A stretch of 64,000 nt of DNA from Bradyrhizobium sp. OK095 (lineage in GTDB: Bacteria; Pseudomonadota; Alphaproteobacteria; Rhizobiales; Xanthobacteraceae): the NCBI RefSeq assembly GCF_900109945.1, contig NZ_FOBX01000001.1:992001-1056000 (forward strand). Reading direction: 5' to 3'. Made by a program: the position numbers and the translations under genes. A model generated the notes under the pieces. It was not told the origin of the DNA. It made no database searches and was given only the letters and a program-made list of their open reading frames with translations. Below are positions 10,313 to 42,348 of the stretch, in pieces (position 1 is the stretch's first letter; every line of letters starts with the position of its first letter).

Positions 10313-10313
10313 A

Positions 10314-27249: not shown

Positions 27250-27696
27250 ATGAAGCGAGTTTTGGTTGTTGGGGGCGCGCTGCTGCTCGGCATGGGCGCG
27301 GTTTGGGCACAGCAGGACTCCGTCAAGGAGGTCCAGACCCTGATGAAGGGCAACGGCAAGAATGCCGGCGCGGTGGCGGCGATAGTCAAGGGCGAGAAGC
27401 CTTACGACCAGGCCACCGTCGATACGGCCCTGGCGCAGTTCGAGGAGACCTCCAAAAAGCTGCCGAACCTGTTTCCGGCCAGCGCCAAGGGCATGAAGCC
27501 CGAGGGCGACTACAGCGCCTCGCCGAAGATCTGGGAGGACAAGGCCGGTTTCGACGCCAAGGCCGCAGGTTTCGGCAAGGTCGTCAGCGAGGCCAAGGGC
27601 AAGATCAAGGATCTGGACTCGCTCAAGGCGACTTTCCCCGCAATCGGCAAGGAATGCGGCGGCTGCCACGAGACGTTCCGCGTGAAGAACGGCTGA
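27250..27696 (+). CDS. Cytochrome c' (class II c-type cytochrome)
   Basis: A 148-residue periplasmic cytochrome. The signal peptide (MKRVLVVGGALLLGMGAVWA) ends near residue 20; the mature part is an Ala/Lys-rich four-helix bundle with the heme-binding CGGCH very near the C-terminus, the hallmark of class II cytochromes. Such proteins bind NO or act in electron transfer. It lies 88 bases after the CoxL-like gene, and the gap contains a short GGCCCCA/TGGGGTC hairpin around 27197-27215. It might accept electrons from the molybdoenzyme, but this is inference. Confidence 0.92.
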   Translation: MKRVLVVGGALLLGMGAVWAQQDSVKEVQTLMKGNGKNAGAVAAIVKGEKPYDQATVDTALAQFEETSKKLPNLFPASAKGMKPEGDYSASPKIWEDKAGFDAKAAGFGKVVSEAKGKIKDLDSLKATFPAIGKECGGCHETFRVKNG

Positions 27697-27702
27697 GGTT
27701 TT

Positions 27703-27739
27703 TGTAGCCCGGTTTGCGCGAAGCGCAATCCGGGCTACA
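27703..27739. repeat. REP-like palindrome (TGTAGCCCGG...CCGGGCTACA)
   Basis: TGTAGCCCGG at 27703 is the exact reverse complement of CCGGGCTACA ending at 27739, with an inner TTGCGC-GAA-GCGCAA hairpin. The same family of TGTAGCCCG palindromes is seen at 61966-62034. I recall very similar intergenic repeats in Bradyrhizobium genomes. Confidence 0.8.
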
Positions 27740-27753
27740 GGGAATTCGGAAAG

Positions 27754-27781
27754 GGCGGCTGCGAGAGCAGCCGCCTTTTTT
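27754..27781 (+). terminator. Intrinsic terminator of the cytochrome c' transcript
   Basis: GGCGGCT pairs with AGCCGCC across GCGAGAGC and is followed by six T residues. It is 57 bases downstream of the cytochrome stop codon. Confidence 0.85.
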
Positions 27782-27950
27782 GTTGCGCGACCATGGCCGC
27801 GAGTCGCAACGCTGCGCCGCAGGAAATTCTGCCCGCAAGCCCTGACGGATTGCCGTTGGAGCAGCTATCTTCACGCCAACCGCGGCGACGTTGATGTGAG
27901 CTGTCGGACCCAGCGCCGCGGGCACTGAATCAGGAACAGCGAGACAGGCC

Positions 27951-29234
27951 ATGGCAAAACCGTTCCCGTCAAAAACCCACATCGGCAACCATATGCTGCA
28001 TCCGGAAACCCTGATGCTGACCTATGGCTATGACCCGCAACTGTCGGAAGGCGCCATCAAGCCGCCGGTGTTCCTGACCTCGACCTTCGTGTTCAAGACG
28101 GCCGAGGACGGGCAGGACTTTTTCGATTTCGTCGCCGGCCGGCGCGAGCCGCCGGAAGGGATGGGCGCGGGGCTCGTCTATTCGCGCTTCAACCATCCCA
28201 ACAGCGAGATCGTCGAGGACAGGCTCGCGATCTACGAGCGCACCGAGAGCTGCGCGCTGTTCTCGTCCGGCATGGCGGCGATCTCGACCACGATCCTGGC
28301 TTTCGTCCGCCCCGGCGATGTCATCCTGCATTCACAGCCGCTCTATGGCGGCACGGAAACCCTGCTGACGAACACGCTTGCGCGCCTGTCGATCGGCGCC
28401 GTCGGATTCGCCGACGGCATTGATGAAGCGGCGGTCAGTCAGGCCGCGGAGGAGGCGATGCGCAAGGGCCGGGTCTCGATGATCCTGATCGAAACCCCGG
28501 CCAACCCGACCAATGGCCTGGTCGACATCGCGATGATCCGCCGTATTGCCGATTCAATCGGAAAGGCCCAGGGGCACACGCCGATCATCGCCTGCGACAA
28601 TACGCTGCTTGGTCCCGTGTTTCAGCGGCCGATCGAGCACGGCGCGGATATTTCGCTGTATTCGCTGACAAAGTATGTCGGCGGCCATTCCGACCTGATT
28701 GCAGGCGCTGCGCTCGGCGCGAAGGCAATCATGAAGGGCATCAAGCAGCTCCGCGGCGCCATCGGCACCCAGCTCGATCCGCATTCCTGCTGGATGATCA
28801 ACCGCTCGCTCGAGACGCTGAGCCTGCGCATGGAAAAGGCCGATGCGAATGCGCGCCTCGTCGCGGACTATCTGCGCGACCACCCCAAGGTGGCCAAGGT
28901 CCACTATCTCGGCCATCACGAGGACGCCTCGCCCGCCGGCCGCGTGTTCGCGCGGCAATGCCTGGGGGCGGGATCGACGTTCTCGTTCGACATCGTCGGC
29001 GGCAAGGCGGCGGCCGTGAAATTCCTCAACGCGCTGCAAATCCTCAAGCTGGCGGTGAGCCTTGGCGGAACGGAATCGCTTGCGAGCCTGCCTGCCACCA
29101 TGACCCATTCCGGCGTTCCCGCCGACATCCGCCAGAAAATCGGCGTGCTCGATTCCACGATCCGGCTGTCGATCGGCATCGAGAACCCGTCGGATTTGAT
29201 CGCGGATCTCGCCCAGGCGCTGAACGCGGCTTGA
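27951..29234 (+). CDS. Cys/Met-metabolism PLP enzyme (cystathionine gamma-synthase/methionine gamma-lyase family)
   Basis: A 427-residue fold-type I PLP enzyme. [17 protein letters not shown] (phosphate-contacting Tyr/Arg), [37 protein letters not shown] and the Schiff-base [15 protein letters not shown] are all family hallmarks. The C-terminal [18 protein letters not shown] and RLSIGIE complete the motif set. Reaction could be cystathionine gamma-synthase, O-acylhomoserine sulfhydrylase or methionine gamma-lyase type; the family is too uniform to decide here. Monocistronic, between a terminator and a convergent small gene. Confidence 0.9.
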
Positions 29235-29241
29235 GCGCGCT

Positions 29242-29631
29242 TCACAGCGGATTGGACGCGCGGCACGCCGACATGATCGCTGCGGCAGCCTCGTTGCTCT
29301 GTGCACCCGAGAGCTGCCGCACGAGGCAAACATAATAACCCTTGCTGGATGCGTTCAGCAGGGAATCCCCGTTGACGACCAGCCAATTGCAGGCCGAGCG
29401 GATATACTGGACCGCAAGCGGCGATCGCGTGTCGCGGATGGCGGACAGCTCGCATTGAGCCTGTCTTTCCATGTCGGATTGCGCGACGACTGGTCCTGAG
29501 AACGAAAGAACCGTTGCGGCAACGGCCACGGCCGCCAGAATATGCGATGGTGCATGAGCAGGCTTCCGGCAGGCCCCTTGGTGCGATAATTTGCCAGGGA
29601 AGGCGGGATAAATCTCGTTGGGAGTGGTCAT
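29242..29631 (-). CDS. Hypothetical secreted protein
   Basis: A 129-residue protein of unknown function. I start at ATG 29631 because an AAAGGGA ribosome-binding site sits about eight bases upstream; the frame is open ten codons further. After about 30 polar residues comes a hydrophobic segment (HILAAVAVAATVLSFSG) and an AQ-type cleavage site, then a mature part of about 80 residues with four Cys that may form two disulfides. It is convergent with the PLP enzyme gene, seven bases apart. Confidence 0.65.
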   Translation of the reverse strand: MTTPNEIYPAFPGKLSHQGACRKPAHAPSHILAAVAVAATVLSFSGPVVAQSDMERQAQCELSAIRDTRSPLAVQYIRSACNWLVVNGDSLLNASSKGYYVCLVRQLSGAQSNEAAAAIMSACRASNPL

Positions 29632-29721
29632 GTTGCGTCCCTTTGCTCTGGAGGCGATCATAAAGAGTCAGGTCGATGGCACAATGGTGGGCGTCGTCGC
29701 ACAGCCAAGGTCCCGCCTCTC

Positions 29722-30342
29722 ATGAGCGGGTCATCCCGATTGACGCAGCTTCGCGCGCGGGTTGTCGCGCTGGCGCGGGCCCAGGACCCCTACGCTCACA
29801 TCTTTGCGGGCAAGGAGTTTCGGCGCGACTATGTGGCGGGGCGCACGATGGTCTGGAGTACGCTCTTCAGCGATATGCGCGATACGACGTCCCGAGTGCT
29901 GGAGATCGGCTCCAAGGAGGGGCGATCCGCACTGTTCTGGCTCGCGTTCTTCGCCGGTGCGCATCTGACCTGCGTGGACCTCTTCCCGGAGGAGGACGGC
30001 GAGCGCTTCGACCGTAATCTTGCCGCCTATGGTCCGCGCCTTCGCAAGATCGTGGGCACCTCGATCAAGGCGCTCGGTAGCTTGCGCGAAGAGAACGCGG
30101 TGTTCGATTTCATCTATGTCGACGGCAGCCATCAGCGCGACGACGTGATGATCGATTGCCTCGGCGCCTGGCGCCTGCTGCGCGTTGGCGGCGTGATGCT
30201 GATGGACGACTACACGTGGAAGCCCGACAATCCCGACGCCGAACGGGTTGCGCCTGCCGTCGACACGTTCCTCGCCTGGCACGGCGATGCCGAAGTGATT
30301 CTGAAGAGCCATCAGGTCGCAGTGCGGAAGCGTCCCGCCTGA
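29722..30342 (+). CDS. Class I SAM-dependent methyltransferase
   Basis: A 206-residue Rossmann-fold methyltransferase of the Methyltransf_24 type: VLEIGSKEGRSALFW is the SAM-binding motif I with acidic second-strand residue in LTCVDLFPEEDG, FDFIYVDGSHQRDDVMID is motif IV with the typical DGSH, and LLRVGGVMLMDDYTW follows. Related small methyltransferases occur in surface-glycan and cephalosporin-hydroxylase-like families; the substrate is unknown. Confidence 0.82.
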   Translation: MSGSSRLTQLRARVVALARAQDPYAHIFAGKEFRRDYVAGRTMVWSTLFSDMRDTTSRVLEIGSKEGRSALFWLAFFAGAHLTCVDLFPEEDGERFDRNLAAYGPRLRKIVGTSIKALGSLREENAVFDFIYVDGSHQRDDVMIDCLGAWRLLRVGGVMLMDDYTWKPDNPDAERVAPAVDTFLAWHGDAEVILKSHQVAVRKRPA

Positions 30343-30355
30343 GACATGGGGAATC

Positions 30356-30383
30356 GAAAAGACCGGACTCGCGTCCGGCCTTT
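30356..30383. terminator. Bidirectional terminator between methyltransferase and CHRD genes
   Basis: AAAAG, CCGGAC, a TCGC loop, GTCCGG and CCTTT form a short hairpin flanked by A and T runs on either side. It lies 14-40 bases after the methyltransferase stop and just beyond the stop of the convergent CHRD gene. Confidence 0.6.
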
Positions 30384-30406
30384 CCGAGACGAAGCGGCGT
30401 TTTCGC

Positions 30407-30823
30407 CTACTTCGTCACCTGACCGCGGATCTCGCCGCCCGGATTGGCCGCGGTGTGAATGTTGACGTAGAGCTTGCCGGCGAGCAGGTCGGAGGCCTGC
30501 GCGTCGGTGAGCGTTGCCGAGCCCTCGACCGGGCTGTTGGCGGCGCCCGGAATTGGGACCGCGACGCCGGCGTTCTTGCCGGTCTCGGCCGGGCCGTGGA
30601 AATGGGCCGCGGTGGCGGGGCCGGACAGGCCGGAATAGCTGAGCTTCCAGGACAATTTCTTGCTGGCGGCGTCATAGTCCAGATCGGCCGTTCCCGTGCC
30701 GCTGCTGGTGGTTGCCGGCACCTCGGACTTGGCGTCGAGCGTTGCTTTCAGCTTTTCGGCGCTGGCCGAGCCGGTAAAGGCAACGGCGCCGAGCGCGAAT
30801 ACGGCGATGACGGTTTTGTTCAT
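30407..30823 (-). CDS. CHRD-domain secreted protein
   Basis: A 138-residue exported protein. ATG 30823 is preferred because it starts a clear signal peptide (MNKTVIAVFALGAVAFTGSASA). The mature part is one CHRD domain: LDAKSEVPATTSSGTG, LSYSGLSGPATAAHFHGPA and the terminal YVNIHTAANPGGEIRGQV are the diagnostic strands, with the His pair of HFHGPA and the IHT/NPGGEIRGQ end. CHRD domains are Ig-like beta-sandwiches of uncertain role, common in bacterial envelopes. It is divergent from the diheme cytochrome gene. Confidence 0.88.
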   Translation of the reverse strand: MNKTVIAVFALGAVAFTGSASAEKLKATLDAKSEVPATTSSGTGTADLDYDAASKKLSWKLSYSGLSGPATAAHFHGPAETGKNAGVAVPIPGAANSPVEGSATLTDAQASDLLAGKLYVNIHTAANPGGEIRGQVTK

Positions 30824-30967
30824 AACATTCTCCCTGGTGGCCTGGTTGAGCTGCCAAACTTCCAACAGCCGCCGTTTCAGTTTATTCCCGTTACCGCGGG
30901 GGATTGCCTAAATTCTTCGTGGCTGGAGCCGCGCGGATATCGGTCATAGGCTCGACCCAACGCGTGG

Positions 30968-31906
30968 ATGGACCGAATGTTGCAACGAACAATTCTGGCG
31001 GCGCTGTTTGCAGCGATTGCCGCTGTCGGTGTCTATTGGTGGCTCAGCGCGCCGGTGGTCGCCGCCGTCAACGCCGGGCCGGCCCATGTGCCTGACCTCG
31101 CCAATGGCGAGGTGATCTTCAACGCCGGCGGCTGCGCGTCCTGCCATGCCGTTCCCGACCAGCCCGATCGTCTCAGGCTCGGCGGCGGGGTCGCGATCAA
31201 GTCGCCGTTCGGAACGTTCTACGCGCCGAACATCTCCTCAGATCCGACCTACGGCATCGGCAAATGGAGCGAGGCCGATTTCGTCAACGCGGTCATGCAC
31301 GGGGTCTCGCCTGGCGGGCAGCATTATTTCCCGGCCTTTCCCTACACCTCCTACCAGCACGCCAAGCGCGCGGACGTGCTCGATCTCTTTGCCTATCTGA
31401 AAACGCTGCCGGCGGTTGCAGGAAAAGTGCGTGATCACGATTTGCCCTTTCCGTTCAATATAAGGCGCAATGTCGGCATCTGGAAATTCCTGTTTCTGGA
31501 CGGCAAGCCGTTCGTCGCCGATGGCGGCAAGTCGCCGCAATGGAATCGCGGCGCCTATCTCGTGAATAGCTTTGGCCATTGCGCCGAATGTCACAGCCCG
31601 CGCAATGTGCTGGGCGGCATCATCTCGAGCGAGTGCTTTGCCGGTGGGCCCAATCCGGAAGGCGAGGGATGGGTGCCGAACATCACGCAGAAGCGCCTTG
31701 GCGAGTGGAGCGTGAAGGATATCGCCTATTTCCTCAAGACTGGCGAATTGCCCGACGGCGACAGCGTCGGCGGCGCGATGACGCGCGTGATCAAGAATAC
31801 GTCGCAATTGTCCGACGACGACCTTGCCGCGATGGCGGATTACCTGAAGTCGCTGCCACCGGTGGACGGTCCGCCGCGACCGAAGCGCAAGGAGGGCGGC
31901 GCCTGA
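30968..31906 (+). CDS. Diheme cytochrome c, membrane-anchored
   Basis: A 312-residue protein with an uncleaved N-terminal helix or signal anchor (LAALFAAIAAVGVYWWL) and two cytochrome c domains with heme sites CASCH near residue 57 and CAECH near residue 203. This matches the cytochrome subunits of flavin- or molybdenum-dependent periplasmic dehydrogenases (alcohol or aldehyde dehydrogenases), but no dehydrogenase gene is adjacent. It may take electrons from an enzyme encoded elsewhere. The C-terminus is charged and Pro-rich. Confidence 0.88.
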   Translation: MDRMLQRTILAALFAAIAAVGVYWWLSAPVVAAVNAGPAHVPDLANGEVIFNAGGCASCHAVPDQPDRLRLGGGVAIKSPFGTFYAPNISSDPTYGIGKWSEADFVNAVMHGVSPGGQHYFPAFPYTSYQHAKRADVLDLFAYLKTLPAVAGKVRDHDLPFPFNIRRNVGIWKFLFLDGKPFVADGGKSPQWNRGAYLVNSFGHCAECHSPRNVLGGIISSECFAGGPNPEGEGWVPNITQKRLGEWSVKDIAYFLKTGELPDGDSVGGAMTRVIKNTSQLSDDDLAAMADYLKSLPPVDGPPRPKRKEGGA

Positions 31907-32048
31907 CGCAGGCCCTTTCCAATTGACACGCAAGGGGCGCGCCCGCATGTTTTGTTGCCGGTTGAGAATTGGAATTGCGTCACGATGGGTTGTCTGGTCT
32001 CTGCGCGAGTAGTGCCTGTTGTTTCGACGCGTGATTGTACCGGGTCGG

Positions 32049-33680
32049 ATGCAGTGGGCCTCGCGGTTCAACCGTTTGGTTGAGATGGCGCGCACAGCAA
32101 AGCTCCCGACCGTGCTCCATGGGCGTTTCCTGACGCTGTTTCGGGCCGCTCTCGGACAGGGGCAGACCGCTGTCGACGCCTATCGGAACTGGCGCGCCTC
32201 CGAGCCGCTGGAGGCTGCCGACGAGATCGTCTACCGCACCATGCCGTTGCTCGTCGCCACGGTCGACAGGGCCGGAATTGTCGATGCCGATACCAAGCGG
32301 ATGCGCGGCGTCGTCAAGCATGTCTGGCTGTCGAACGCGACGCGGGTGCGCGATCTCGTCGAGGCCAATCGAGCGCTCGAAAGCGCCGGCATCGCCGCGC
32401 TGCTGATCAAGGGCGGTGCGCTGTTTGCGCGCGACGAGAGCTACATGGCGAAGCGCATGACGGGGGATTACGATCTCCTGGTTCGCCGCGTTGAGGCGCA
32501 GCGCGCCATCGAGGTGCTGCGGCAGGCTTCGTTCCGCAGCCATGGCATGAAGGTCGAGCTGTTCTCGGAGTCCGATTTCGACCGCGACATCCATGCTGTC
32601 GCGATGTCGCGCGCCGGCTTCAGCCGGGCCATCGACCTGCATTGGCGCGCGATCTTCTGGCTCGACGACACCGGTTTCACCGAAGAATTGTTCAGGACCG
32701 CCGAGCGGGCGAAGCTGCTGACCCATGACGTGTTGATCCCGGGTCTTGCCGAGCAGCTGGCGATCGCGGCCATGCGGCCGGAGCCCGCCGATCAGAAGGA
32801 GATGGTTTTCCGGGCGCTCGAGGTCGTCCACGTGCTGGAAAACTACGGCGACAAGGTCGATTGGGATCGCTTCCGCTCGATCGTGACGCGTTACAACGGC
32901 AGCCTGTTCGCGGCGCAATTGCTCGACGTCGTCGCGCGGGAGATGCCGGCGCTCGTGCCGGATGGTCTGGTGGGCCAGTTGTGGCACTACGGTCCGCCCG
33001 GGAAATCCGTCGAGATCGCGGTGCGCAGCGTGCCGCGGGCGCAGCGCACGCAATGGCAGCAGTTCTGGGTCGCCTTCTTCGCGGCGTTGCGCGCGCAGTT
33101 CAAGGCGCCGTTTCGCGGGTTGGATTGGCTGAGGCTGCCGGGCGCGGCCATCGCCGCGTTCGACGCCAGCGTCATGCATTTCCCCTTGTTTCGGGACGCG
33201 ATCCTGAAGCGGGTCTGGCAGCAGGCGGCCGATACGCCGCATCCGCGGCGCGGAAAAGGCGTCTGGTTCGGGCAGGGGTTTTCCATTCCGGAAGACGAGG
33301 GGCGGTGGACTGATCATCAGTTCGCGGTCATCGACGTGCCGATCGACGGACAGGCGCAGACGTTCGCTGAGGTCGAGCTAGGCGTGATCCCGTTCCTGCC
33401 GCCGGGCACGGAAAGCTTTCGCTTTGCGGCCTATACCGGGACCGGTGAAGTGTTGCAGATGATTGCGGGGCGCAACGATCCGATGCCGTTCAAGCTGACG
33501 CTGAAGGCGAAGATCGTCGGCACAGGCGAGCGGAAGATCGTCGTTGCGTTGCGCATGCTCGATACCGGCCGTCCGATGGATATCGGCCATTCGATCGACC
33601 ATCGCCTGCTCGGATTGTTCGTGAAGTCGGTGTCGGTCAACGGCGTGCCGGTGTTCACTCCGGCGGCCGCTGCGCCTTGA
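32049..33680 (+). CDS. Uncharacterised nucleotidyltransferase family protein (NTP_transf_5-like)
   Basis: A 544-residue protein. LLIKGGALF near residue 120 and TGDYDLLVR with Asp140 and Asp142 match the Gly/Asp-x-Asp motif of the Pol-beta-type family called uncharacterised nucleotidyltransferase. A helical middle part follows, and the last 180 residues are beta-rich and unrelated to known transferase parts. Start is uncertain: ATG 32049, or TTG 32019 further upstream. Its 3' end overlaps the convergent GT2 gene by 26 bases. Related nucleotidyltransferases occur with PqqD and HprK-like proteins, as here, which suggests a common pathway modifying a peptide or glycan. Confidence 0.75.
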   Translation: MQWASRFNRLVEMARTAKLPTVLHGRFLTLFRAALGQGQTAVDAYRNWRASEPLEAADEIVYRTMPLLVATVDRAGIVDADTKRMRGVVKHVWLSNATRVRDLVEANRALESAGIAALLIKGGALFARDESYMAKRMTGDYDLLVRRVEAQRAIEVLRQASFRSHGMKVELFSESDFDRDIHAVAMSRAGFSRAIDLHWRAIFWLDDTGFTEELFRTAERAKLLTHDVLIPGLAEQLAIAAMRPEPADQKEMVFRALEVVHVLENYGDKVDWDRFRSIVTRYNGSLFAAQLLDVVAREMPALVPDGLVGQLWHYGPPGKSVEIAVRSVPRAQRTQWQQFWVAFFAALRAQFKAPFRGLDWLRLPGAAIAAFDASVMHFPLFRDAILKRVWQQAADTPHPRRGKGVWFGQGFSIPEDEGRWTDHQFAVIDVPIDGQAQTFAEVELGVIPFLPPGTESFRFAAYTGTGEVLQMIAGRNDPMPFKLTLKAKIVGTGERKIVVALRMLDTGRPMDIGHSIDHRLLGLFVKSVSVNGVPVFTPAAAAP

Positions 33681-34335
33681 TCGCCTTGCGCAGCGCCATC
33701 AGCGTCTGGAGGTTTTGAGCCTCCGTATTGGTGCGGCCGCCATTGCCGAGATGCAGTCGGCGCCGGACGACGATGTCATCGACATGGGCGGTTTTCATCC
33801 CGCCCTGCTTGGCGTGACCGAGCCAGGCGATGAAGAAGGTCGCCGGCAGCGTCTCGTCGAACGGGCCGGCCCGGTCGAGCGCAGCGCGGTGGATCAGCAT
33901 GCATTGCTTCAGCTCGCCCGGCATGATCTCGACGGCGGGCTTGATGCGCGCGCGGTGCTGTTCCGGCACATCGGGGCTGACGAATTGCTGCACCTTGCCG
34001 AACGCGGCCTCGATGCCGCCGTCATGGTCGAGCAGCGCCAATTGCAGTTCAAGCTTGCGCGGGGTCCAGAGGTCATCTGCATCGCAGAAGCCGATCAGCT
34101 CGCCGCGTGCGCGTGCCAGGCCCTTGTTGACGGCGACGGCCTGACCGCTGTTGGCCTGGCTGAGCGCGACGATGCGACCACTGAAGCCATCGAGAATGCC
34201 GCGCGTGCCGTCCGTGGAGCCGTCATCGATGACGATGACCTCATCGGGCGGGACGGTCTGGCCGAGCACGCTCTCGATCGCCTCGGCGATGTAGGCCTCG
34301 GAATTGTAGGCGGCGATGACCACGGAGACGCGCAT
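33655..34335 (-). CDS. Glycosyltransferase family 2
   Basis: A 226-residue GT-A transferase: VSVVIAAYNSEAYIAEAIES at the N-terminus, VIVIDDGSTDGT, NSGQAVAVNKGLARARGE and GFCDADDLW with the metal-binding DxD. It is short, near the catalytic-core minimum, with no membrane segment. It is the last gene of the minus-strand run PqqD-HprK-GT2, six bases after the kinase stop. Donor and acceptor are unknown. Confidence 0.85.
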   Translation of the reverse strand: MRVSVVIAAYNSEAYIAEAIESVLGQTVPPDEVIVIDDGSTDGTRGILDGFSGRIVALSQANSGQAVAVNKGLARARGELIGFCDADDLWTPRKLELQLALLDHDGGIEAAFGKVQQFVSPDVPEQHRARIKPAVEIMPGELKQCMLIHRAALDRAGPFDETLPATFFIAWLGHAKQGGMKTAHVDDIVVRRRLHLGNGGRTNTEAQNLQTLMALRKAIKAQRPPE

Positions 34336-34341
34336 GCGGCC

Positions 34342-35334
34342 TCACAGCCGTTCCAGCTGGTGGGCGAAGGCCGCAGGAATCTCCATCGGCGCGGTGCCGG
34401 TGTCGACGAAAAACACCGGCGCGAGGCCTGCGATCTTCGCGACCTTGTCGGCGATTTCGTTCGGCCATCCCGGCAATTCGTAGGCGGTGGTCGGCAGCAG
34501 CGCGCGAAACGCGTCCGACTGTTTTGCCGGCGCAAACTCGGGAGACGCCGCGCCACGCCGACGCGGGATGAACGTCGCGCGCAGCCTGCCGCCGCCGATG
34601 CGGTCGCCGAGACCGGCGAGGCTCAGCTCGTGGCGCGGCTCGCCGTTGAAATCCGAGACCGCCGTGGTTTCGCCGATGAAATTCTGAAAGGTCTCGACGA
34701 GGGCAGGGCGCAAGCGCGCCGAGCAGAACAGCGGCTCGATCTGGCCGGTGGCGCTGTTGACCGCGACAAAGTCGTCACCCGCATAGCGCCAGCCGGCCTT
34801 GGTGCAGGCCAGCGCCGCCGTGGTCTTGCCGCTGTGGCCTTCGCCCGCGAGCAGCGTAAAACCTGCGTCGTGTCCCACGGCCGCGCCATGGACGGCGCAC
34901 CAGGGCGTGTCGTGCATCATGGCATGGATCAGCGAAATCGCCGGACGGCTGCGGATCCAGGGCGGCGCGTCGCCCTTCGGCAGCCAGGCAATGCCGCGCT
35001 TTGCGGTGAGATCGACCGCATAGAGCACGGGAATGACGGCGGGCTGCCATACCGAATAGATGCCGTCCTCGATCAGCAGGCGCGGCTTCTCGGCCGCCTC
35101 CGGCACCAGCGCGGAGAGATCATGGTGGGCGGCGGTTATGACGCGCAGGTCGAGATCGATCGTGCTGGGCGTGGACTGGATATAGGCCGGCAGGAACATG
35201 CCGGCCAGATCCTGTGAGGCAAAGCCGATGTGCATGCCGAACGGGCCGCAGCGGGCGTACGCTTCGACTGGCACCGACGCCGTCTCGGCGAAGATCGCCG
35301 CGATCTCCTGCCGGATGAGGCCGCTAGCTTTCAT
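34342..35334 (-). CDS. HprK-related serine kinase-like protein
   Basis: A 330-residue protein. The P-loop GEGHSGKT is at residues 164-171 and is preceded by AVHGAAVG with His149, the arrangement found in HPr kinase/phosphorylase, where HG lies just before the P-loop; WRYAGDDFVAV follows like the HprK catalytic Asp region. The first 150 residues are a separate domain not seen in true HprK. No HPr or PTS gene is nearby. In lasso-peptide clusters such HprK homologues phosphorylate a peptide C-terminus. ATG 35334 overlaps the PqqD-like gene end by 11 bases, so coupling is tight. Confidence 0.78.
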   Translation of the reverse strand: MKASGLIRQEIAAIFAETASVPVEAYARCGPFGMHIGFASQDLAGMFLPAYIQSTPSTIDLDLRVITAAHHDLSALVPEAAEKPRLLIEDGIYSVWQPAVIPVLYAVDLTAKRGIAWLPKGDAPPWIRSRPAISLIHAMMHDTPWCAVHGAAVGHDAGFTLLAGEGHSGKTTAALACTKAGWRYAGDDFVAVNSATGQIEPLFCSARLRPALVETFQNFIGETTAVSDFNGEPRHELSLAGLGDRIGGGRLRATFIPRRRGAASPEFAPAKQSDAFRALLPTTAYELPGWPNEIADKVAKIAGLAPVFFVDTGTAPMEIPAAFAHQLERL

Positions 35335-35758
35335 GAGGCTCGCGCAGCGGCCAGCCTTCGTCGCCGGCGTCATGCACGGGATCCATCAGCAGCAGCTCCC
35401 TCAGATTGTCGAAGCGCTGGAATTCCGGGGCGACGAATGCGCCCGACAACACCGGCGCCCAAGCCTCAATGGAGGCCTCACTGCGCGCATCGGCTACGCC
35501 TTCGGCGATGAGCCCTTCCGCCAGCATGCTGTCGACGAAGGCCTGCACCTGTTGTGTGATGGACGGCACATCGCCAGCGGTCGCGGTCGCGACGGCGCTG
35601 CCGATCTCCTCAACCGTTCGGTTGGCCTTGAGGCCGAGCCAGACTTGCGCGGCGCTGCCGTCGAGGTTGTAGTAGACGCCGTTCTGATAGTTGGCGAGCA
35701 CCACTTCACTATCAAATTGCTGGCTGATCAGCAGCGGCACCGACGTCGTGAGAGCCAT
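35324..35758 (-). CDS. PqqD-like peptide-chaperone family protein
   Basis: A 144-residue protein: the first 90 residues show the PqqD fold features SEVVLANYQNGVYYNLDGSAAQVW (the strand-turn with conserved Asn/Gly then the helix), followed by a helix with VEEIGSAV and a C-terminal helix DSMLAEGLI. PqqD proteins bind precursor peptides for radical-SAM or other modifying enzymes. No radical-SAM gene and no PQQ genes are present; the partner is the HprK-like kinase directly downstream. A 50-residue tail of unknown role extends the domain. Confidence 0.78.
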   Translation of the reverse strand: MALTTSVPLLISQQFDSEVVLANYQNGVYYNLDGSAAQVWLGLKANRTVEEIGSAVATATAGDVPSITQQVQAFVDSMLAEGLIAEGVADARSEASIEAWAPVLSGAFVAPEFQRFDNLRELLLMDPVHDAGDEGWPLREPHES

Positions 35759-35848
35759 GACTTGCAGTACTCAGTTCAATTTCAACGGCCGAACGCTAGC
35801 ACAGGCGGCCGGCTGCGCAACCATGCGGCTTGCGCCAAAGGCGGGCAG

Positions 35849-36094
35849 TCAGCTGGCGCCAAAGGCCTTGAAGGTGATGATGGTGAGGGTGTCCTGGATG
35901 CCCGGCAGCACCTGCACCTTCTCGTTGATGAAGTGGCCGATGTCGGTGTCGTTGTCGACGTAGAACTTCACCAGCAGATCGTAATGGCCGGCGGTGGAGT
36001 AGATCTCGGAGGCGATCTCGGCTTCGGCAAGCGCATTGGCGACCGTGTAGGACTGGCCGAGCTTGCATTTGATCTGGACGAAAAAGGGAACCAT
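35849..36094 (-). CDS. Stand-alone Lrp/AsnC ligand-binding (RAM) domain protein
   Basis: An 81-residue protein made only of the AsnC_trans_reg/RAM sensor domain: MVPFFVQIKCKLGQSYTVAN, AGHYDLLVKFYVDNDTDIGHFINEKV and GIQDTLTIITFKAF. There is no DNA-binding helix-turn-helix, so it is a SraA-like stand-alone effector sensor, perhaps pairing with full-length Lrp proteins. I choose ATG 36094 because it begins the first strand of the domain; a frame 20 codons longer exists. It is 90 bases upstream of the PqqD-like gene and might share its promoter. Confidence 0.85.
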   Translation of the reverse strand: MVPFFVQIKCKLGQSYTVANALAEAEIASEIYSTAGHYDLLVKFYVDNDTDIGHFINEKVQVLPGIQDTLTIITFKAFGAS

Positions 36095-36182
36095 TGCAGT
36101 CACTCCGAAAGCGTAGCTGGCGGATAATAGGCCAAAACTGCCCCGCTTTAGCAAGCGGACTTGCCGGCCGCCAGTCCGGCGC

Positions 36183-38165
36183 TCAGGAGGTCACGGTCGC
36201 CGCGGCAAATGCGTCCCTGAGCCGCTCCGCCAGCTCGGCCTTGCGGTAGGGCTTGGTCAGGATGATCGCCTGCGCCTGCGCGCGGCCCTGCTCGACCAGG
36301 GCCTCCAGCGCATAGCCCGAGGTGAACAGGACCGGCAGCGAGGGGCGAAGCCGCCGGGCCTGTTCGGCGAGGTCCCAGCCGCTCATGCCGCCGGGCATGA
36401 TGATGTCGGTGAACAGCATGTCGATGCCGGGGTCGGTACGCAGCCGCTGCAAGGCCTCCTTGCCGTTGACGGCGGCGACGACGCGATAGCCGAGCGCCTC
36501 CACCCTCTGGATCACCGAGGAGCGCACGAACGGATCGTCCTCCGCGATCAGGATCGTCTCGTGGCCGCGCGGCGCGGCCTCGTCGTTCTCCAGCATGTCG
36601 CCTGAGGATTGTCCGGCGCCGGCGCGCGGCAGGTAGATCCGGACCGTCGTCCCCAGCCCCTGCTCGCTATAGATCGAGACGTGGCCGTCGGATTGCTTGG
36701 CGAAGCCATAGACCATCGAGAGCCCGAGTCCCGAACCCTTGCCCACGTCCTTGGTCGTGAAGAACGGCTCGAAGGCATGCTCGACGACCTCAGGCGTCAT
36801 GCCTTCGCCGTCGTCGGTGACGGAGATCAGGGCGTAGCTGCCGGACGTCACCTCCGGGTGCATAGCGCGATAGTCCTCGTCGATCGCGGCGAACTCCGTG
36901 CTCAGCGTCAGATGTCCTCCGGATGGCATGGCGTCTTGTGCGTTCAGCGCAAGGTTCAGCACGGCGGATTCGAGCTGGGCGCGGTCGGCGAATGCCAGGA
37001 CCGTGCCGAGCCCGAAGGCCGTCCTGATCTCGATGCTCTCGCGCAAGGTGCGCTTGAGCAGCTTGACCATGGATTCGAGCAGCTCGCGGCAATCGATCGC
37101 TTGCGGCTGGAGGAACTGGCGGCGGCTGAACGCGAGCAGCCGCTGCGTCAGCTCCGCGCCGCGTTCGCCGGACTCGCAGATGTCGTCGGCAAACTGCCGC
37201 AAGTCGGGGCGGGCCTTGAGCTGCTCGCTCAGATGCTCGGCATTGCCGATGATGACGGTCAGCAAATTGTTGAAGTCGTGGGCGATGCCGCCGGAGAGCT
37301 GGCCGACCGTTTCCATCTTCTGTGCCTGCTGGAGCTGCTGCTCGGTCAGCTTGCGCGCGGTCAGGTCGTGGATGATTCCGACGAAGATCAGTTCGCCGTC
37401 CTGCGTCGCCTGTCCGACCGACAGCTCCATCGGAAAGGTCGATCCGTCCTTGCGCAGGCCCGTGGCTTCGCCGCCGGTCGCGAAATGCCTGGCGTCGCGG
37501 TCGGGCAACATGCTCGCTCCGCCGGGCATCAGCATTCTGACGTTGCGGTTCATCACCTCGCTGGCGTTGTAGCCGAACAATCTTTCGCAGGCCGGGTTGA
37601 ACAACAGGATGCGGTCCTGCGCGTCGAACAGGATGACCCCGTCGACTGCGGTCTCGACGATCGCGGTGAGGCGGGTCATGCTTTCACGCGTCGCGCGCTG
37701 GGCATCTCTGACCTGCCGGAGCAGCAGCGTTGCGTCCCGGCTCTTGATCTCCTCCTCCTCGAGCGCGGCCTGGACCTTCTGGAGCTCGAACGGGGAGGGG
37801 ATCGTCAGGATCTTCGGCAACAGCGGCCAGAGCGCCCCGGCCGTGAAGATCGATGCAACCGCCGTCGCCGCCTTGACCAGGCCCTCGATGCCGTAGACCG
37901 GGACCCAGAGGGTGTAGATCGACAGCACATGGGTCAGGCCGCACGCCATGATGAAGATCGCGAAGGCCCAATAGACCCAGCCGAACTGGAGGTCGCGCCG
38001 CTTGGTGACGAGGATCGTGAGGGCAAACGGAATCGAGAAATAGGCGGCCGCGATGAGGGCGTCCGAGACCACGTGGAGCCAGATCAACTCGGGCTCCCAC
38101 AGCAAGCAGATGCCGTGCGGTGAAAACATCGAGGAGTCGAGGATGCGTTCGAAGTAGGCCCACAT
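36183..38165 (-). CDS. Hybrid sensor histidine kinase with an ETR1-like ethylene/copper-binding membrane domain
   Basis: A 660-residue hybrid kinase (or 683 if an ATG at 38234 is used; GGTGG precedes ATG 38165). The first 110 residues have three membrane helices like plant ethylene receptors: Asp35, Tyr42, Ile45, Pro46, Ile72, Cys75 and His79 stand at exactly the spacing of ETR1 Asp25, Tyr32, Ile35, Pro36, Ile62, Cys65 and His69. A PAS domain follows (about 165-285), then HisKA with phospho-acceptor His in GGIAHDFNNLL (about 295), HATPase with NLALNAQDAM and GKGSGLGLSMVYG, and a receiver domain with the phospho-Asp in MLFTDIIMP (about 586). The output partner is not adjacent. Confidence 0.88.
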   Translation of the reverse strand: MWAYFERILDSSMFSPHGICLLWEPELIWLHVVSDALIAAAYFSIPFALTILVTKRRDLQFGWVYWAFAIFIMACGLTHVLSIYTLWVPVYGIEGLVKAATAVASIFTAGALWPLLPKILTIPSPFELQKVQAALEEEEIKSRDATLLLRQVRDAQRATRESMTRLTAIVETAVDGVILFDAQDRILLFNPACERLFGYNASEVMNRNVRMLMPGGASMLPDRDARHFATGGEATGLRKDGSTFPMELSVGQATQDGELIFVGIIHDLTARKLTEQQLQQAQKMETVGQLSGGIAHDFNNLLTVIIGNAEHLSEQLKARPDLRQFADDICESGERGAELTQRLLAFSRRQFLQPQAIDCRELLESMVKLLKRTLRESIEIRTAFGLGTVLAFADRAQLESAVLNLALNAQDAMPSGGHLTLSTEFAAIDEDYRAMHPEVTSGSYALISVTDDGEGMTPEVVEHAFEPFFTTKDVGKGSGLGLSMVYGFAKQSDGHVSIYSEQGLGTTVRIYLPRAGAGQSSGDMLENDEAAPRGHETILIAEDDPFVRSSVIQRVEALGYRVVAAVNGKEALQRLRTDPGIDMLFTDIIMPGGMSGWDLAEQARRLRPSLPVLFTSGYALEALVEQGRAQAQAIILTKPYRKAELAERLRDAFAAATVTS

Positions 38166-38427
38166 GATTCCACCCCGGGAGAGCTGCGGGCCGGGGGTGG
38201 CCCGCAACATGGTGTCGCTGGACGGTTCCACCACCTAACTTCTCACTCATCGATGTGGACGCCAAGGCCTAAGCTAAATCGCCCTTATATTTTGCAGCCT
38301 GTGCACGATTCCGGGACGACAAGGCCGCGCCGCATTGTCTCCGCCTGATTCGTCCGGCTTGCCGGCGTTCCGTGGTCGCGCTAGGACAGGCCATGGCGGT
38401 GTCCCTCTCAAGCGAATGTCTCCGGCG

Positions 38428-39228
38428 ATGACAACTGCAGTCGCGCTCACCATTGCGGGCTCGGATTCGAGCGGCGGCGCCGGCATCCAGGCCGACCTCA
38501 AGACCTTTGCCGCGCTCGGCGTCTATGGCGCCTCCGCCATCACGGCGCTCACCGCGCAGAACACGCGCGGCGTGACCGGCATTCACGCGGTGCCCGCCGA
38601 ATTCGTCACCGCGCAGATCGATGCCGTGTTTTCCGATCTCGACATCGGTGCAGTGAAGATCGGCATGGTGGCGCAGGCTGCCAGCATCGATGCGATCGCG
38701 GCCGCGCTGTCGCGCTGGAAGCCTCAACACATCGTGCTCGATCCCGTGATGGTCGCAACCTCCGGCGACCGCCTGCTGGCGTCCGAGGCCGTCGAAGCGT
38801 TGCGCAAAAAACTGATGCCGCTCGCCTCGGTGATCACACCGAACCTGCCGGAGGCCGCGGCTCTGCTCGACGAGCCCATTGCACGAAGCGAAGCCGAGAT
38901 CGAGAGCCAGGGGCGGCGGCTGATGGCGCTCGGCTGCCGTGCGGTCCTGATCAAGGGCGGCCACGGCGAGGGTGCCGAGAGCACCGACTATCTCGTCGAT
39001 TCCCGGAAAACGATCGCGCTCGCCGCGCCGCGCGTCGCCACTCAAAACACCCATGGCACCGGCTGCTCGCTGTCCTCGGCGGTCGCGGCGGGGCTCGCCA
39101 AGGGCGAGGATCTCGAGCACGCGGTGCGCAATGCCAAGGCCTGGATCAGCGCCGCGATTGCGGCCGCCGACCGTTTCAGCGTCGGTCACGGCCACGGGCC
39201 GATCCATCATTTCCACAAGTTCTACTGA
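38428..39228 (+). CDS. thiD: Hydroxymethylpyrimidine/phosphomethylpyrimidine kinase
   Basis: A 266-residue ribokinase-fold kinase. It begins [22 protein letters not shown], the ThiD N-terminal signature, with [24 protein letters not shown] and the C-terminal anion hole [15 protein letters not shown]. It phosphorylates HMP and HMP-phosphate in thiamine biosynthesis. ATG 38428 is chosen over ATG 38416, four codons earlier, because it directly precedes the family motif. No TPP riboswitch can be recognised upstream. Confidence 0.93.
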
Positions 39229-39327
39229 CGCCGGCGGCGCGCGGCGCCACTGATCCCGGCATGAACCACCAAGGCCGTGCGATTCCGCAGCTTTGCGGAG
39301 GCCGCCGCGGCCCCATGTCGCCTGATT

Positions 39328-39339
39328 GTCGCATGCGAC
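39328..39339. promoter_or_regulatory. Perfect 12-bp palindrome GTCGCATGCGAC
   Basis: A perfect palindrome within the 217-base gap before the phospholipase gene, 65 bases upstream of the PHO box. It could be an operator half-site pair or chance; no regulator is known to me for it. Confidence 0.3.
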
Positions 39340-39403
39340 TGATATTCGCGGGGAGGGCGAGGCAAGGTCTGATTCGTATCTGAGGGTGCCTCAAGGGTTC
39401 AAT

Positions 39404-39421
39404 CTGTCATCCCCCTGTCAC
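39404..39421 (+). promoter_or_regulatory. PHO box (PhoB-binding site)
   Basis: CTGTCAT, CCCC, CTGTCAC: the two 7-base direct repeats separated by four bases match the PhoB consensus CTGTCAT-N4-CTGTCAT at 13 of 14 positions. It ends 24 bases before the ATG at 39446. The site suits the genes below, which resemble the phosphate-starvation lipid-remodelling pair plcP-agt of rhizobia. Confidence 0.82.
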
Positions 39422-39445
39422 GGGACATTTGTTACAGGCTGACGC

Positions 39446-40258
39446 ATGGGAAGTTACGATGTGAGTGACGAGAGCCCGGAACGGCGCTTTCGCACGTTGT
39501 TTATCTCCGACGTCCATCTCGGAGCCCGCGGTTCTCAGGCCGACCTTCTGCTCGACTTCCTGCGTTTCCATGATGCCGACACGATCTATCTCGTCGGCGA
39601 TATCGTCGACGGCTGGGCGCTGAAATCGAGCTGGCACTGGCCGCAATCGCATAACGACCTGGTCCAGAAGCTGCTGCGCAAGGCGCGCAAGGGCGCCAAG
39701 GTCATCTACATCCCCGGCAATCACGACGAATTCCTGCGCAACTATTACGGCACCCATTTCGGCGGCATCGACGTGGTCGAGAACACCGTCCACACCAGCG
39801 CGGACGGCAAGCGCTACCTCGTCATCCACGGCGACATCTTCGACCTCGTGGTGCAGAACGCGCGCTGGCTCGCGCATCTCGGCGACAAGGCCTACGACTT
39901 CGCGATCCAGATGAATCGCTTCGTCAACTTCTTCCGGCGCATGTTCAAGGTGCCCTATTGGTCGCTGTCGCAATGGGCCAAGCAGAAGGTGAAGAACGCC
40001 GTCAACTATATCGGCGCGTTCGAGCAGGCGCTTGCCGCGGAAGCGCGCCGCCATGACGCCGACGGCGTGATCTGCGGCCACATTCACTACGCCGTGATCC
40101 GTGACGAGGGCGGCATCCGCTACATGAATTGCGGCGACTGGGTGGAGAGCTGCACCGCGCTGGTCGAGCACGACGACGGCCATTTCGAGATCATCACCTG
40201 GGCGGATCACGCGCAGAAGCCTGCGGAAGTCCCGCAGGTCGCGGCAAGGGCTGCCTGA
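39446..40258 (+). CDS. plcP: Metallophosphoesterase, PlcP-like phospholipase C (annotated family: UDP-2,3-diacylglucosamine diphosphatase)
   Basis: A 270-residue metallophosphoesterase: TLFISDVHLGARG, YLVGDIVDGW, IPGNHDEFLR, VIHGDIFD and CGHIHYAVI carry the two-metal ligands Asp, His, Asn. The family is that of LpxH-like enzymes, but the rhizobial member PlcP cleaves phosphatidylcholine to diacylglycerol under phosphate limitation (known in Sinorhizobium). Three things point to PlcP instead of LpxH: the PHO box upstream, the DADTIYLVGDI segment I recall from PlcP, and the following glycosyltransferase, which corresponds to Agt. The assignment is from memory and context. Confidence 0.75.
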   Translation: MGSYDVSDESPERRFRTLFISDVHLGARGSQADLLLDFLRFHDADTIYLVGDIVDGWALKSSWHWPQSHNDLVQKLLRKARKGAKVIYIPGNHDEFLRNYYGTHFGGIDVVENTVHTSADGKRYLVIHGDIFDLVVQNARWLAHLGDKAYDFAIQMNRFVNFFRRMFKVPYWSLSQWAKQKVKNAVNYIGAFEQALAAEARRHDADGVICGHIHYAVIRDEGGIRYMNCGDWVESCTALVEHDDGHFEIITWADHAQKPAEVPQVAARAA

Positions 40259-41301
40259 TGCGCATCCTGGTCGCGACCGACGCCTGGCACCCGCAAGTCA
40301 ACGGTGTGGTTCGGACGCTGACCAAGCTTGCCGACGCAGCCGAGGCGCTCGGCGCCGAATTCACGTTCCTGACGCCGCAATCGTTCCCAACATTTGCGAT
40401 GCCGAGCTATCGCGACGTGCGGCTGGCGATGCCGCGCCCGGCGCGAATCGCAAAGCTGATCGCAGAAGCACGCCCGGACAGCATCCACATTGCGACGGAA
40501 GGGCCGATCGGCCTGATGGTCCGCCGATATTGCCGCCAGCGCAAACTGCCGTTCACGAGCAGCTTCCACACGCGCTTTCCCGAATATGTCCGCGCCCGGA
40601 TGCCGGTTCCGGAATCTCTGATCTGGCGGGCGCTGCGTCGTTTCCATGCGCCCAGCCGCGCCGTGTTGGCGGCAACCCCGGCACTCGCCCGCGAACTGAC
40701 CGACCGCGGCTTCGACAATGTGCTGCTGTGGCCGCGCGGCGTCGACACCGGTTTGTTCCATCCCCGCGCCATCGATCTCTGCCTGCCGGCGCCGGTGTTC
40801 CTGTCGGTCGGCCGCGTCGCGGTGGAGAAGAATCTCGAGGCGTTCCTCGACCTCGATCTGCCCGGCACCAAGGTGATCGTCGGCGACGGACCCGCACGTG
40901 TCGCGCTGGAGGAAGCCTATCCGGATGCGATCTTCCTTGGGGAAAAGCACGGCGAGGCGCTGGCGGACATCTATGCTGCCGCCGACGTGTTCGTGTTTCC
41001 CAGCAAGACCGACACGTTCGGTCTGGTCCTGCTGGAGGCGCTCGCGAGTGGCCTGCCGGTTGCGGCCTTCCCGGTGAAGGGCCCCCGCGACGTGATCGGC
41101 GATGCGCCGGTTGGCGCGCTGGATCACGACCTGCGCAACGCCTGCTTCGCGGCGCTCGACGTCTCCCGGCAGGACTGTGTGGAGTTCGCCTCCAACTACA
41201 CCTGGGAGGCCTCGGCGAGGGCCTTCATAGACAGCATTTTGGCGGTCGGCGCGGTGCTGCCGGGCCGAAACGGCACGGAACAGCCACGCTTCGTCGCCTG
41301 A
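40258..41301 (+). CDS. Glycosyltransferase family 4, Agt-like diacylglycerol glycosyltransferase candidate
   Basis: A 347-residue GT-B enzyme starting at ATG 40258, which overlaps the phosphoesterase stop (TGATG), so the two are translationally coupled. ILVATDAWHPQVNGVVRTL is the typical N-terminus of the GT4 group that includes PimB-like mannosyltransferases and rhizobial Agt; the donor site has FPSKTDTFGLVLLEALASGLPV. With PlcP supplying diacylglycerol, this enzyme would make glucosyl- or glucuronosyl-diacylglycerol that replaces phospholipids under phosphate starvation. The sugar specificity is inference. Confidence 0.75.
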   Translation: MRILVATDAWHPQVNGVVRTLTKLADAAEALGAEFTFLTPQSFPTFAMPSYRDVRLAMPRPARIAKLIAEARPDSIHIATEGPIGLMVRRYCRQRKLPFTSSFHTRFPEYVRARMPVPESLIWRALRRFHAPSRAVLAATPALARELTDRGFDNVLLWPRGVDTGLFHPRAIDLCLPAPVFLSVGRVAVEKNLEAFLDLDLPGTKVIVGDGPARVALEEAYPDAIFLGEKHGEALADIYAAADVFVFPSKTDTFGLVLLEALASGLPVAAFPVKGPRDVIGDAPVGALDHDLRNACFAALDVSRQDCVEFASNYTWEASARAFIDSILAVGAVLPGRNGTEQPRFVA

Positions 41302-41364
41302 GGGGAAGAAATCCTCACGCCGGGGTGTCTTGCCCGGGCCTCGATAGCCGCGGTACAGTCGGCA

Positions 41365-42348
41365 ATGACCGAACAGCTCCTCCCGATCGGGCCTGCCGAT
41401 ATCGATGCCGCGGCGCGCGTGCTCGCGCCCTTCGCCGTCCGCACCCCACTGTTGTCCTTTCCCGTGCTCAACGAGCGCGTCGGTGCAAAAGTGTTCCTGA
41501 AGCCGGAGATGCTCCAGCGCACCGGCTCCTTCAAGTTCCGAGGCGCCTTCAACAAAGTGTACTCGATCCCGCAGGACAAGCGCGCCGGCGGCGTCGTCGC
41601 GTTCTCGTCCGGCAATCATGCGCAGGGCGTGGCGGCGGCGGCAAAGATCCTCGACATGCACGCAACCATCGTGATGCCCGCGGACGCGCCGCTGTCCAAG
41701 CGCGAGCGCACCAAATCCTATGGCGCCGACGTCGTGCTGTACGACCGCTACAACGACGACCGCGAGGCGATCTCGCGCGGCATCGCCGAGAAGCGCGGCG
41801 CGACTCTGGTCAGGCCCTACGACGATCCCTTCGTGATCGCGGGGCAGGGCACCGCCGGCCGTGAGATCGCCGAGGACATGGCAACGCTCGGCCTTTCGCC
41901 TGACATCGTGGTAGCGCCGGCCTCGGGCGGCGGCCTGATCGCAGGCGTCGCGACCGCCGTGAAAGCGCGCTATCCGCTGGCCGAGATCGTGGTGGCCGAG
42001 CCCGAAGCGTTCGACGATCACAGCATTTCGCTGACTGCGGGGCACCGTGAGCCGCATGCGCCTGCGGGCCGCACCATCTGCGATGCGCTCATGGCCCTGA
42101 TCCCCGGTGAGATGACCTTTGCGATCAACAGCAAGCTGCTGGCGCGCGGCGTGACCGCCTCGGACAAGGAAGTCGGCGCGGCGGTTTCGTTCGCCTACCA
42201 CGAGCTGAAGCTCGTGGTCGAGCCGGGCGGCGCCGTCGGCCTCGCCGCGTTGCTCGCGGGGCGTCTCAACGTCGCCGGCAAGAACGTGGTCATCGTGCTC
42301 TCCGGCGGCAATGTCGATGCGGATCTGTTTGCCGAGCTGGTGGCCTGA
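41365..42348 (+). CDS. Threonine/serine dehydratase (PLP fold type II)
   Basis: A 327-residue enzyme of the tryptophan-synthase-beta PLP family: PEMLQRTGSFKFRGAFNK contains the Schiff-base Lys, FSSGNHAQGVAAAAKIL is the substrate-binding loop, VAPASGGGLIAG binds the PLP phosphate, and VEPGGAVGLAALL with LSGGNVD completes the motif set. It lacks the C-terminal regulatory ACT domain of biosynthetic IlvA, so it belongs to the catabolic threonine dehydratase/serine racemase group. It may deaminate threonine or serine or racemise serine. Confidence 0.9.
   Translation: MTEQLLPIGPADIDAAARVLAPFAVRTPLLSFPVLNERVGAKVFLKPEMLQRTGSFKFRGAFNKVYSIPQDKRAGGVVAFSSGNHAQGVAAAAKILDMHATIVMPADAPLSKRERTKSYGADVVLYDRYNDDREAISRGIAEKRGATLVRPYDDPFVIAGQGTAGREIAEDMATLGLSPDIVVAPASGGGLIAGVATAVKARYPLAEIVVAEPEAFDDHSISLTAGHREPHAPAGRTICDALMALIPGEMTFAINSKLLARGVTASDKEVGAAVSFAYHELKLVVEPGGAVGLAALLAGRLNVAGKNVVIVLSGGNVDADLFAELVA

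Follow-up and report, generated by a model that had tools for sequence, protein, structure and literature searches.

A recurring bacterial gene cluster in which a PqqD-like protein with a conserved C-terminal tail accompanies a kinase, a nucleotidyltransferase and a glycosyltransferase

Gene content of the cluster

The DNA analysed here is a 64,000-nucleotide stretch from Bradyrhizobium sp. OK095 (hereafter the window), located in a genome of 7.85 Mb, and the nearest named relatives at the locus are Bradyrhizobium. It contains a cluster of four genes encoding a nucleotidyltransferase (NTase), a small GT2 glycosyltransferase, an HprK-like kinase and a PqqD-like protein, the last of which joins a recognition element (RRE) of ribosomally synthesised and post-translationally modified peptides (RiPPs) to a conserved C-terminal tail. 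The arrangement given in the initial annotation, three overlapping or abutting minus-strand genes converging with the NTase gene, was borne out together with the coordinates of all four genes:

32049..33680, plus strand: NTase with a PF14907 domain at about 32235-32936 (59 bits, cut-off 31.2)
33655..34335, minus strand: short GT2 glycosyltransferase of 226 aa (PF00535, 113.8 bits, cut-off 23.3; solved GT2 relatives)
34342..35334, minus strand: predicted HprK/PEPCK-fold kinase of 330 aa, or 343 aa if the start is 35373 (invariant residues and AlphaFold2 model)
35324..35758, minus strand: PqqD-like RRE protein with conserved C-terminal tail (PF05402, 45.3 bits, cut-off 23.4)

Four segments can be distinguished within the PqqD-like protein:

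35507..35707, minus strand: RRE (PqqD) domain, residues 18-84 (PF05402 match)
35411..35437, minus strand: leader-like segment FVAPEFQRF, residues 108-116 (conservation; predicted strand 113-116)
35384..35404, minus strand: predicted tail helix LRELLLM, residues 119-125, partly in a block with a mean predicted local distance difference test (pLDDT) score of 58
35348..35383, minus strand: core-like segment DPVHDAGDEGWP, residues 126-137 (D126, P127, H129, W136 and P137 invariant; low pLDDT)

The PqqD-like and kinase genes overlap by 11 bp (kinase start 35334), 6 bp lie between the kinase and GT2 genes, and the 3' ends of the GT2 and NTase genes overlap tail to tail by 26 bp. Scores for PF05402, PF14907 and PF00535 are all above their cut-offs. 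In the NTase, the R..DxD residues are present in 23-26 of the 26 rows with letters there (alignment of 29 rows), and the C-terminal part of about 250 aa is without any family match. Assignment to the pyrroloquinoline quinone (PQQ) pathway was rejected, as the PqqD-like protein reached 13.5 bits against a cut-off of 46 for true PqqD (TIGR03859). No PQQ or phosphotransferase system genes were found among the scanned cluster neighbours, with no genome-wide search made for them.

Structure and conservation of the PqqD-like protein

The initial designation of a PqqD-like peptide chaperone agrees with the AlphaFold2 model (input of 66 sequences), which displays the lasso B1/RRE fold with strands at residues 10-15, 18-23 and 28-33 followed by helices at 34-44, 49-60 and 64-80. 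Its best PDB matches are TbiB1 with a leader (5v1v) and then another leader-bound lasso B1 protein (6jx3). Mean pLDDT is 89-97 in the blocks covering residues 1-80, 60 in the linker (91-100), 92 for residues 101-110 and 86 for 111-120; the blocks holding the core-like segment have values of 58, 49 and 44, and DPVHDAGDEGWP is predicted to be flexible. DSSP calls a strand only where it is paired, and outside the tail the long strands belong to the RRE. Strand 113-116 therefore likely pairs with the RRE, suggesting that the front of the tail probably docks on the groove of the RRE in the same protein.

Alignment of the PqqD-like proteins of the loci described below demonstrated that the C-terminal tail is far more conserved than the RRE, with a consensus of roughly [FWY]xxPx[LF]xx[YF]xDM..LLLLDP[IV]H[DE]V...GWP, and that D126, P127, H129, W136 and P137 are invariant in 14 alignment rows, none of which was picked by motif. 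The tail is a separate conserved module attached via a variable linker. A profile search with the tailed RRE gave 3202 proteins at E <= 0.001; all of the best-scoring 120 of these contain DPxH..WP, ending 2-20 residues from the C-terminus, and many of the 120 are about 30% identical to the window protein. In a set of 74 tails (52 listed proteins and 22 loci) chosen by DPxH..WP, a selection that itself sets those five letters, the core positions left free were I/V within DPxH in 73, D/E after H in 74, V in 70 and G before WP in 73, and the upstream positions were F/W/Y at -18 in 70, P at -15 in 69, L/F/I at -13 in 73 and Y/F at -10 in 71. A motif scan of the loci gave one occurrence per tailed locus, always within the PqqD-like open reading frame (ORF), and one chance match (L135).

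In three half-tail loci (L123, L125 and L126) the leader-like part persists together with the DP after it, while H..GWP is gone. Each of them has two NTase genes, and L125 also encodes a type I phosphodiesterase akin to genes in L123 and L126. The tail profile further matched 330 short proteins, with the motif in 119 of the 120 listed, and some of these may be stand-alone genes. Five of them, P0252, P0327, P0357, P0302 and P0349, are mostly tail, with hydrophobic starts in P0302 and P0349, and some of them are possibly fragments. The front of the tail can also be compared with a lasso precursor recognised by a curated model in the tail-less locus L132, which has YEAPEL where the window tail has FVAPEF. 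This precursor (10248-10364 of that locus, minus strand) matches NF033521 with 25.2 bits (cut-off 19), lies beside a tail-less PqqD gene and has Ser at its end. No description of the tail was found in the papers searched, including by motif strings, and one may exist in print that escaped this search.

The kinase

The kinase has no Pfam match above cut-off, and some of its homologues bear the newer Pfam number PF27840. A proposed relation to HprK-related-kinase-A systems was not sustained, the protein scoring 23.3 bits against a cut-off of 200 for the NCBIfam model HprK_rel_A (TIGR04352). The likeness to lasso-peptide kinases that had also been noted did stand, since the protein retains the His-Lys-Asp-Asp residues of those enzymes (available text of PMC9266682). 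These residues (H149, K170, D187 and D188) are invariant across 26 rows and present in 33 or 34 of 34 kinases spanning both clades of the tree described below. A PDB sequence search with the kinase gave no match at E <= 1, and a search with its alignment gave only an unrelated chymotrypsin (E 2.5), so the structure had to be predicted. The AlphaFold2 model has a mean pLDDT of 93.3, and its top structural matches are phosphoenolpyruvate (PEP) carboxykinase (E 1e-11) and then HPr kinase (E 3e-4). By modelled fold and His-Lys-Asp-Asp residues, the protein is a P-loop kinase of the HprK/PEPCK type with predicted catalytic activity. In the kinase tree, one branch with 100/100 support separates 11 rows from lasso-type loci from 23 others (21 tailed and 2 half-tailed), and the half-tailed rows nest among the tailed ones.

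Distribution of the cluster

The four-family cluster is a real, recurring module. Among the loci returned, 12 of the 13 from Bradyrhizobium (L025-L035 and L037) share with the window the order AsnC, PqqD, kinase, GT2, NTase, cytochrome c. The thirteenth, L036, carries a diverged cassette at the same site (8613-14364) with a second GT2 gene and an extra gene, and its NTase is 44% identical, compared with 71% for the cytochrome c next to the cassette and 99% for AsnC. The extra gene of L036 encodes a 472-aa protein without a Pfam match, a relative of which lies beside the NTase gene in L039.

At E <= 8.5e-126 the kinase was found in 18 of 265 genomes of the genus (that of the window included), and four more have weak matches. 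Fourteen genus genomes without the kinase at E <= 1e-8 were compared, of which G024, G105 and G122 have a weak match (E 2e-4 to 9e-6); AsnC and the cytochrome gene lie within 140 bp of each other in nine, about 1.1 kb apart in one and beyond the 1.5-kb flank in four. AsnC thus adjoins the cytochrome site in most of these genomes, which suggests that the whole four-gene set comes and goes as a unit at a fixed site, in the manner of an accessory cassette. Distant kinase homologues (about 21-45% identity) lie in rearranged clusters of the same families, including one in a planctomycete metagenome-assembled genome (L040). The plasmid NC_019735.1 of the cyanobacterium Crinalium epipsammum PCC 9333 encodes a tailed PqqD protein, a nucleotidyltransferase, an HPr kinase, an FkbM methyltransferase and two family A glycosyltransferases. 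Accessory genes at other tail loci encode a GT4, a sugar-region glycosyltransferase, a DegT aminotransferase, a carbamoyltransferase and an FkbM methyltransferase, a set such as might be found for a variable glycan. A viral or phage origin was also considered and rejected, with no confirmed IMG/VR relatives and no match in the phage collection.

Tailed and lasso-type loci

For a comparison of gene content, local models of the kinase, NTase, GT2 and PqqD proteins were seeded with the window genes and extended on the first 37 loci, and those of the B2 protease and the asparagine-synthase-like protein were built from L050; the same models gave no match in two 19.9-kb window stretches off the cluster. 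Eleven tail-less loci served as controls, namely L050 from the same genome and L128-L137, picked down the ranking. L050 (4572-9272 on contig C14) encodes an asparagine-synthase-like cyclase, a B2-like protease, an HprK-like kinase and a tail-less PqqD protein, and a PF14907 NTase gene lies about 17 kb away.

The controls contain the asparagine-synthase-like protein in 10 loci (9 of 10 once the model seed L050 is excluded), B2 in 6, the kinase in 9, the NTase in 2 and GT2 in 1 (2 at a looser cut-off). In the first 23 tailed loci (22 plus L124), GT2 was present in 23, the NTase in 18, B2 and the asparagine-synthase-like protein in none, and the kinase in 21, a count that is circular for the 16 loci found through the kinase; the other seven were found through PqqD. 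Four more PqqD-ascertained loci (L168-L171) have the kinase in 4, GT2 in 4 and the NTase in 3.

The fairest test was a tail-only probe, an 18-row alignment run against 347 genomes of the order. It matched 24 genomes at 28 places, 23 of them new. The gene counts cover the sequence retrieved around each place, which extends at most about 10 kb to either side. At all 23 new loci the tail ends an RRE protein and is accompanied by the kinase and GT2; the NTase is present at 21, the B2 lasso protease at none and the asparagine-synthase-like protein at one (L228, Pfam-confirmed). These figures contradict random grouping, the outcome against which the initial annotation had proposed to check co-occurrence. 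PqqD, kinase, GT2 and NTase genes are consecutive in L218, L219 and L222, and gene orders vary among the tail-only loci. In L220 (10625-14191) and L221 (10524-14108), an ATP-binding cassette (ABC) exporter gene lies between the kinase and GT2 genes of the tailed cluster (Pfam-confirmed in L221).

Taken over all 51 tail loci, GT2 occurs in 51, the kinase in 49, the NTase in 43, B2 in none and the asparagine-synthase-like protein in one. Local profiles detected neither a lasso cyclase nor a B2 protease in the window, and the matches of the genome lie on contig C14 and, weakly, C26. Reading the window cluster as a lasso cluster was therefore rejected, given that it has neither the asparagine-synthase-like cyclase nor the transglutaminase-like B2 protease.

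Search for a separate precursor gene

The initial annotation had proposed looking for short conserved ORFs nearby. When 1352 small ORFs (25-130 aa, at most 4 kb from the cluster) from 41 divergent loci were all compared with one another, none was common to more than two loci; a separate precursor encoded near the cluster is on this ground improbable, save for one that evolves fast or is confined to a single genome.

Neighbouring genes

The 12 window genes scanned (27292-42345) match other families, apart from 29245-29661, which has no match, and the kinase. They include neither an SpI signal peptidase nor an MsbA-like exporter, and SpI was not searched for in the other loci. At 36183-38234 (minus strand) a gene encodes a hybrid histidine kinase whose N-terminal domain resembles that of ethylene receptors (PF25487 ETR1_N, 129 bits) and which also has PAS and receiver domains.

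Discussion

In mycofactocin and PQQ biosynthesis an RRE is combined with a hyperconserved core peptide, and mycofactocin also involves a GT2 enzyme (MftF). Unlike these systems, the present cluster has no radical S-adenosylmethionine gene among the neighbours scanned, and unlike MftF, for which the cut-off is 280 bits, the window GT2 scores 52.1 bits. Borosins such as OphMA carry a precursor peptide fused to its own modifying enzyme; the likeness lies in the joining of a precursor to a pathway protein, which here would be a recognition domain and not a modifying enzyme.

The closest known systems are the linear polyphosphorylated peptides (LPP) and the paeninodin-type lasso tailoring pathways. 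As described in the available parts of PMC13381572, LPP clusters share with the window a discrete RRE, an HprK-like kinase, an NTP transferase and the lack of a lasso cyclase, and they also have a leader with YxxP and glycosyltransferase-rich loci. Features of their own are an SpI signal peptidase, an MsbA-like exporter and a precursor encoded separately; they were described predominantly from Bacillota, and their kinase puts several phosphates on serine (same source, in part). Unlike in LPP, the candidate peptide of the present module is fused to the RRE and GT2 is constant. The paeninodin, pseudomycoidin and Bsf pathways (PadeK, PsmK, PsmN and BsfK; excerpts of PMC9266682 and PMC10368454) also contain a B1-type RRE, a His-Lys-Asp-Asp kinase and a nucleotidyltransferase gene; unlike them, the tail loci lack B2, have a cyclase-like protein in one of 51 cases, yielded no separate precursor and have kinases of a separate clade. 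According to the accessible portions of PMC9266682, PMC10368454 and PMC13381572, kinases of such type phosphorylate precursor serines (the C-terminal Ser by PadeK, Ser3 by BsfK and by LppK). BsfK is sped up by the RRE protein BsfB1 (PMC10368454, in part), and PsmN has been tied, possibly by an indirect route, to hexose addition on phosphoserine (PMC9266682, in part). RREs recognise motifs of the W/Y/LxxP type (PMC12710340 and PMC13381572, both in part), and 21% of PF05402 proteins exceed the size of a discrete RRE without further Pfam annotation (PMC12710340, in part).

The initial suggestion of a peptide- or glycan-modifying system holds insofar as the families belong together and resemble such a system; a separate peptide substrate was not found, and the candidate is the tail of the PqqD-like protein. 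We tentatively propose, with a probability of roughly 0.4, that the PqqD-like protein carries its own leader- and core-like peptide, on which the linked enzymes carry out phospho-glycosylation. Within the tail, the front part ([FWY]xxPx[LF]) would serve as the leader, retained in cis or bound by a partner molecule, and the back part (DP[IV]H[DE]V...GWP) would be the modified core. The HprK-like kinase would be the first to act on the tail. The NTase may then put a sugar on the phosphate, the role proposed for PsmN, and the phosphate-linked sugar could be extended and decorated by GT2 and the accessory enzymes. A built-in substrate is the simplest account that draws on every part of the module: it would explain why no precursor gene was found, why the tail is conserved and so constantly accompanied by modifying enzymes, and why the protein has its predicted fold.

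Several observations weigh against a built-in substrate. The tail has no invariant Ser/Thr; six of 50 tails lack both over the stretch that starts 10 residues ahead of the core and runs to the end, and 14 of 50 lack them from the core onward. The acceptor would then have to be His, Asp or another residue, unless the tail serves only for docking and the glycan is built elsewhere. The tolerant [FWY]xxP version of the leader motif is matched by 33 of 50 tails and is not universal, and the window tail alone matched no NCBIfam model, including the curated lasso leader model NF033521. Among variant cores, L124 reads DIVH (DIVHDTDDAGWP) without the P of DPxH, a departure that also counts here, and P0352 reads DPVF. 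The cis placement of the tail derives from a single AlphaFold2 monomer in which the tail helix is partly of low confidence. As for gene content, the NTase was not found in eight of the 51 tail loci, nor the kinase in L119, where the contig ends, and L121. All four families also occur in L060 (8352-8666 and neighbours), which matched the kinase weakly; its PqqD protein is tail-less, and the locus is possibly a relative of the module. Such a gene set can thus occur with no tail. L062 and L064 have the kinase and NTase without PqqD, which counts against a strict rule. The exporter query matched in four of 51 tail loci, not including the window, compared with five of 11 lasso-type loci, and no peptidase was seen among the genes scanned, with no systematic search made for one. 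Among the short tail proteins, 48 of the 120 listed have no Met start, and many are probably fragments. The short-peptide BLAST used near the 41 loci is blind to a fast-evolving or single-genome precursor, which limits that null result.

In a rival reading, the tail is a docking peptide for the kinase, GT2 and NTase, the true substrate being another molecule (e.g. a sugar, a lipid or a surface protein) that receives a phosphate-linked glycan. We regard this as quite possible, though short of an even chance: the missing invariant phospho-acceptor and the six of 50 tails without Ser/Thr in the relevant stretch speak for it, as do GT2 in 51 of 51 tail loci and the glycan-type accessory genes. Conservation of the tail over more than 20 residues, though the distant partner enzymes are only about 20-45% identical to those of the window, would suit an active-site ligand better than a surface contact, and L123, L125 and L126 keep the leader-like part while the core-like part is gone.

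It is improbable that the RRE serves a peptide encoded elsewhere, as in lasso and LPP pathways, with the tail merely covering the groove until that peptide arrives. The characterised relatives do have separate precursors (PMC9266682, PMC10368454 and PMC13381572, as far as their available text goes) and some short ORFs have only the tail (such as P0252 with 45 aa; longest contig 88 kb), but no small ORF near the cluster is common to more than two of the 41 divergent loci, and a constant DPxH..GWP core would be needless for covering a groove. Still less credit is due to a noncanonical lasso or LPP cluster whose cyclase, protease or signal peptidase genes were lost or relocated: the RRE, kinase and NTase families are common to both and a lasso-type locus does exist on contig C14 of the same genome, but B2 occurs in 0 of 51 tail loci and the asparagine-synthase-like protein in 1 of 51, compared with 10 of 11 tail-less loci for the latter, and the kinases group in a clade of their own. 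Chance proximity of functionally unrelated genes can practically be dismissed, for although every family is common by itself, the kinase and GT2 accompany the tail at 23 of 23 tail-only loci in varied gene orders and the same genes recur on a cyanobacterial plasmid.

If the tail is indeed a built-in substrate, the module could represent a new RiPP class, in which recognition element and precursor form one polypeptide, the RRE binds its own leader in cis and the exposed, hyperconserved DPxHDV..GWP core is phosphorylated, possibly on His or Asp, and glycosylated, yielding a protein-borne or cofactor-like phosphoglycopeptide in Alphaproteobacteria, Cyanobacteria and other phyla; we consider this extended proposal rather unlikely as it stands. 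RRE-based genome mining seeks an RRE with a nearby precursor gene and, should the precursor be fused, may have missed many proteins, the tailed-RRE profile having 3202 matches (tail checked in the best 120), in line with the available part of PMC12710340. The near-constant core would also offer a defined test peptide for studying the chemistry of an HprK-like kinase, a PF14907 NTase and a small GT2 together.

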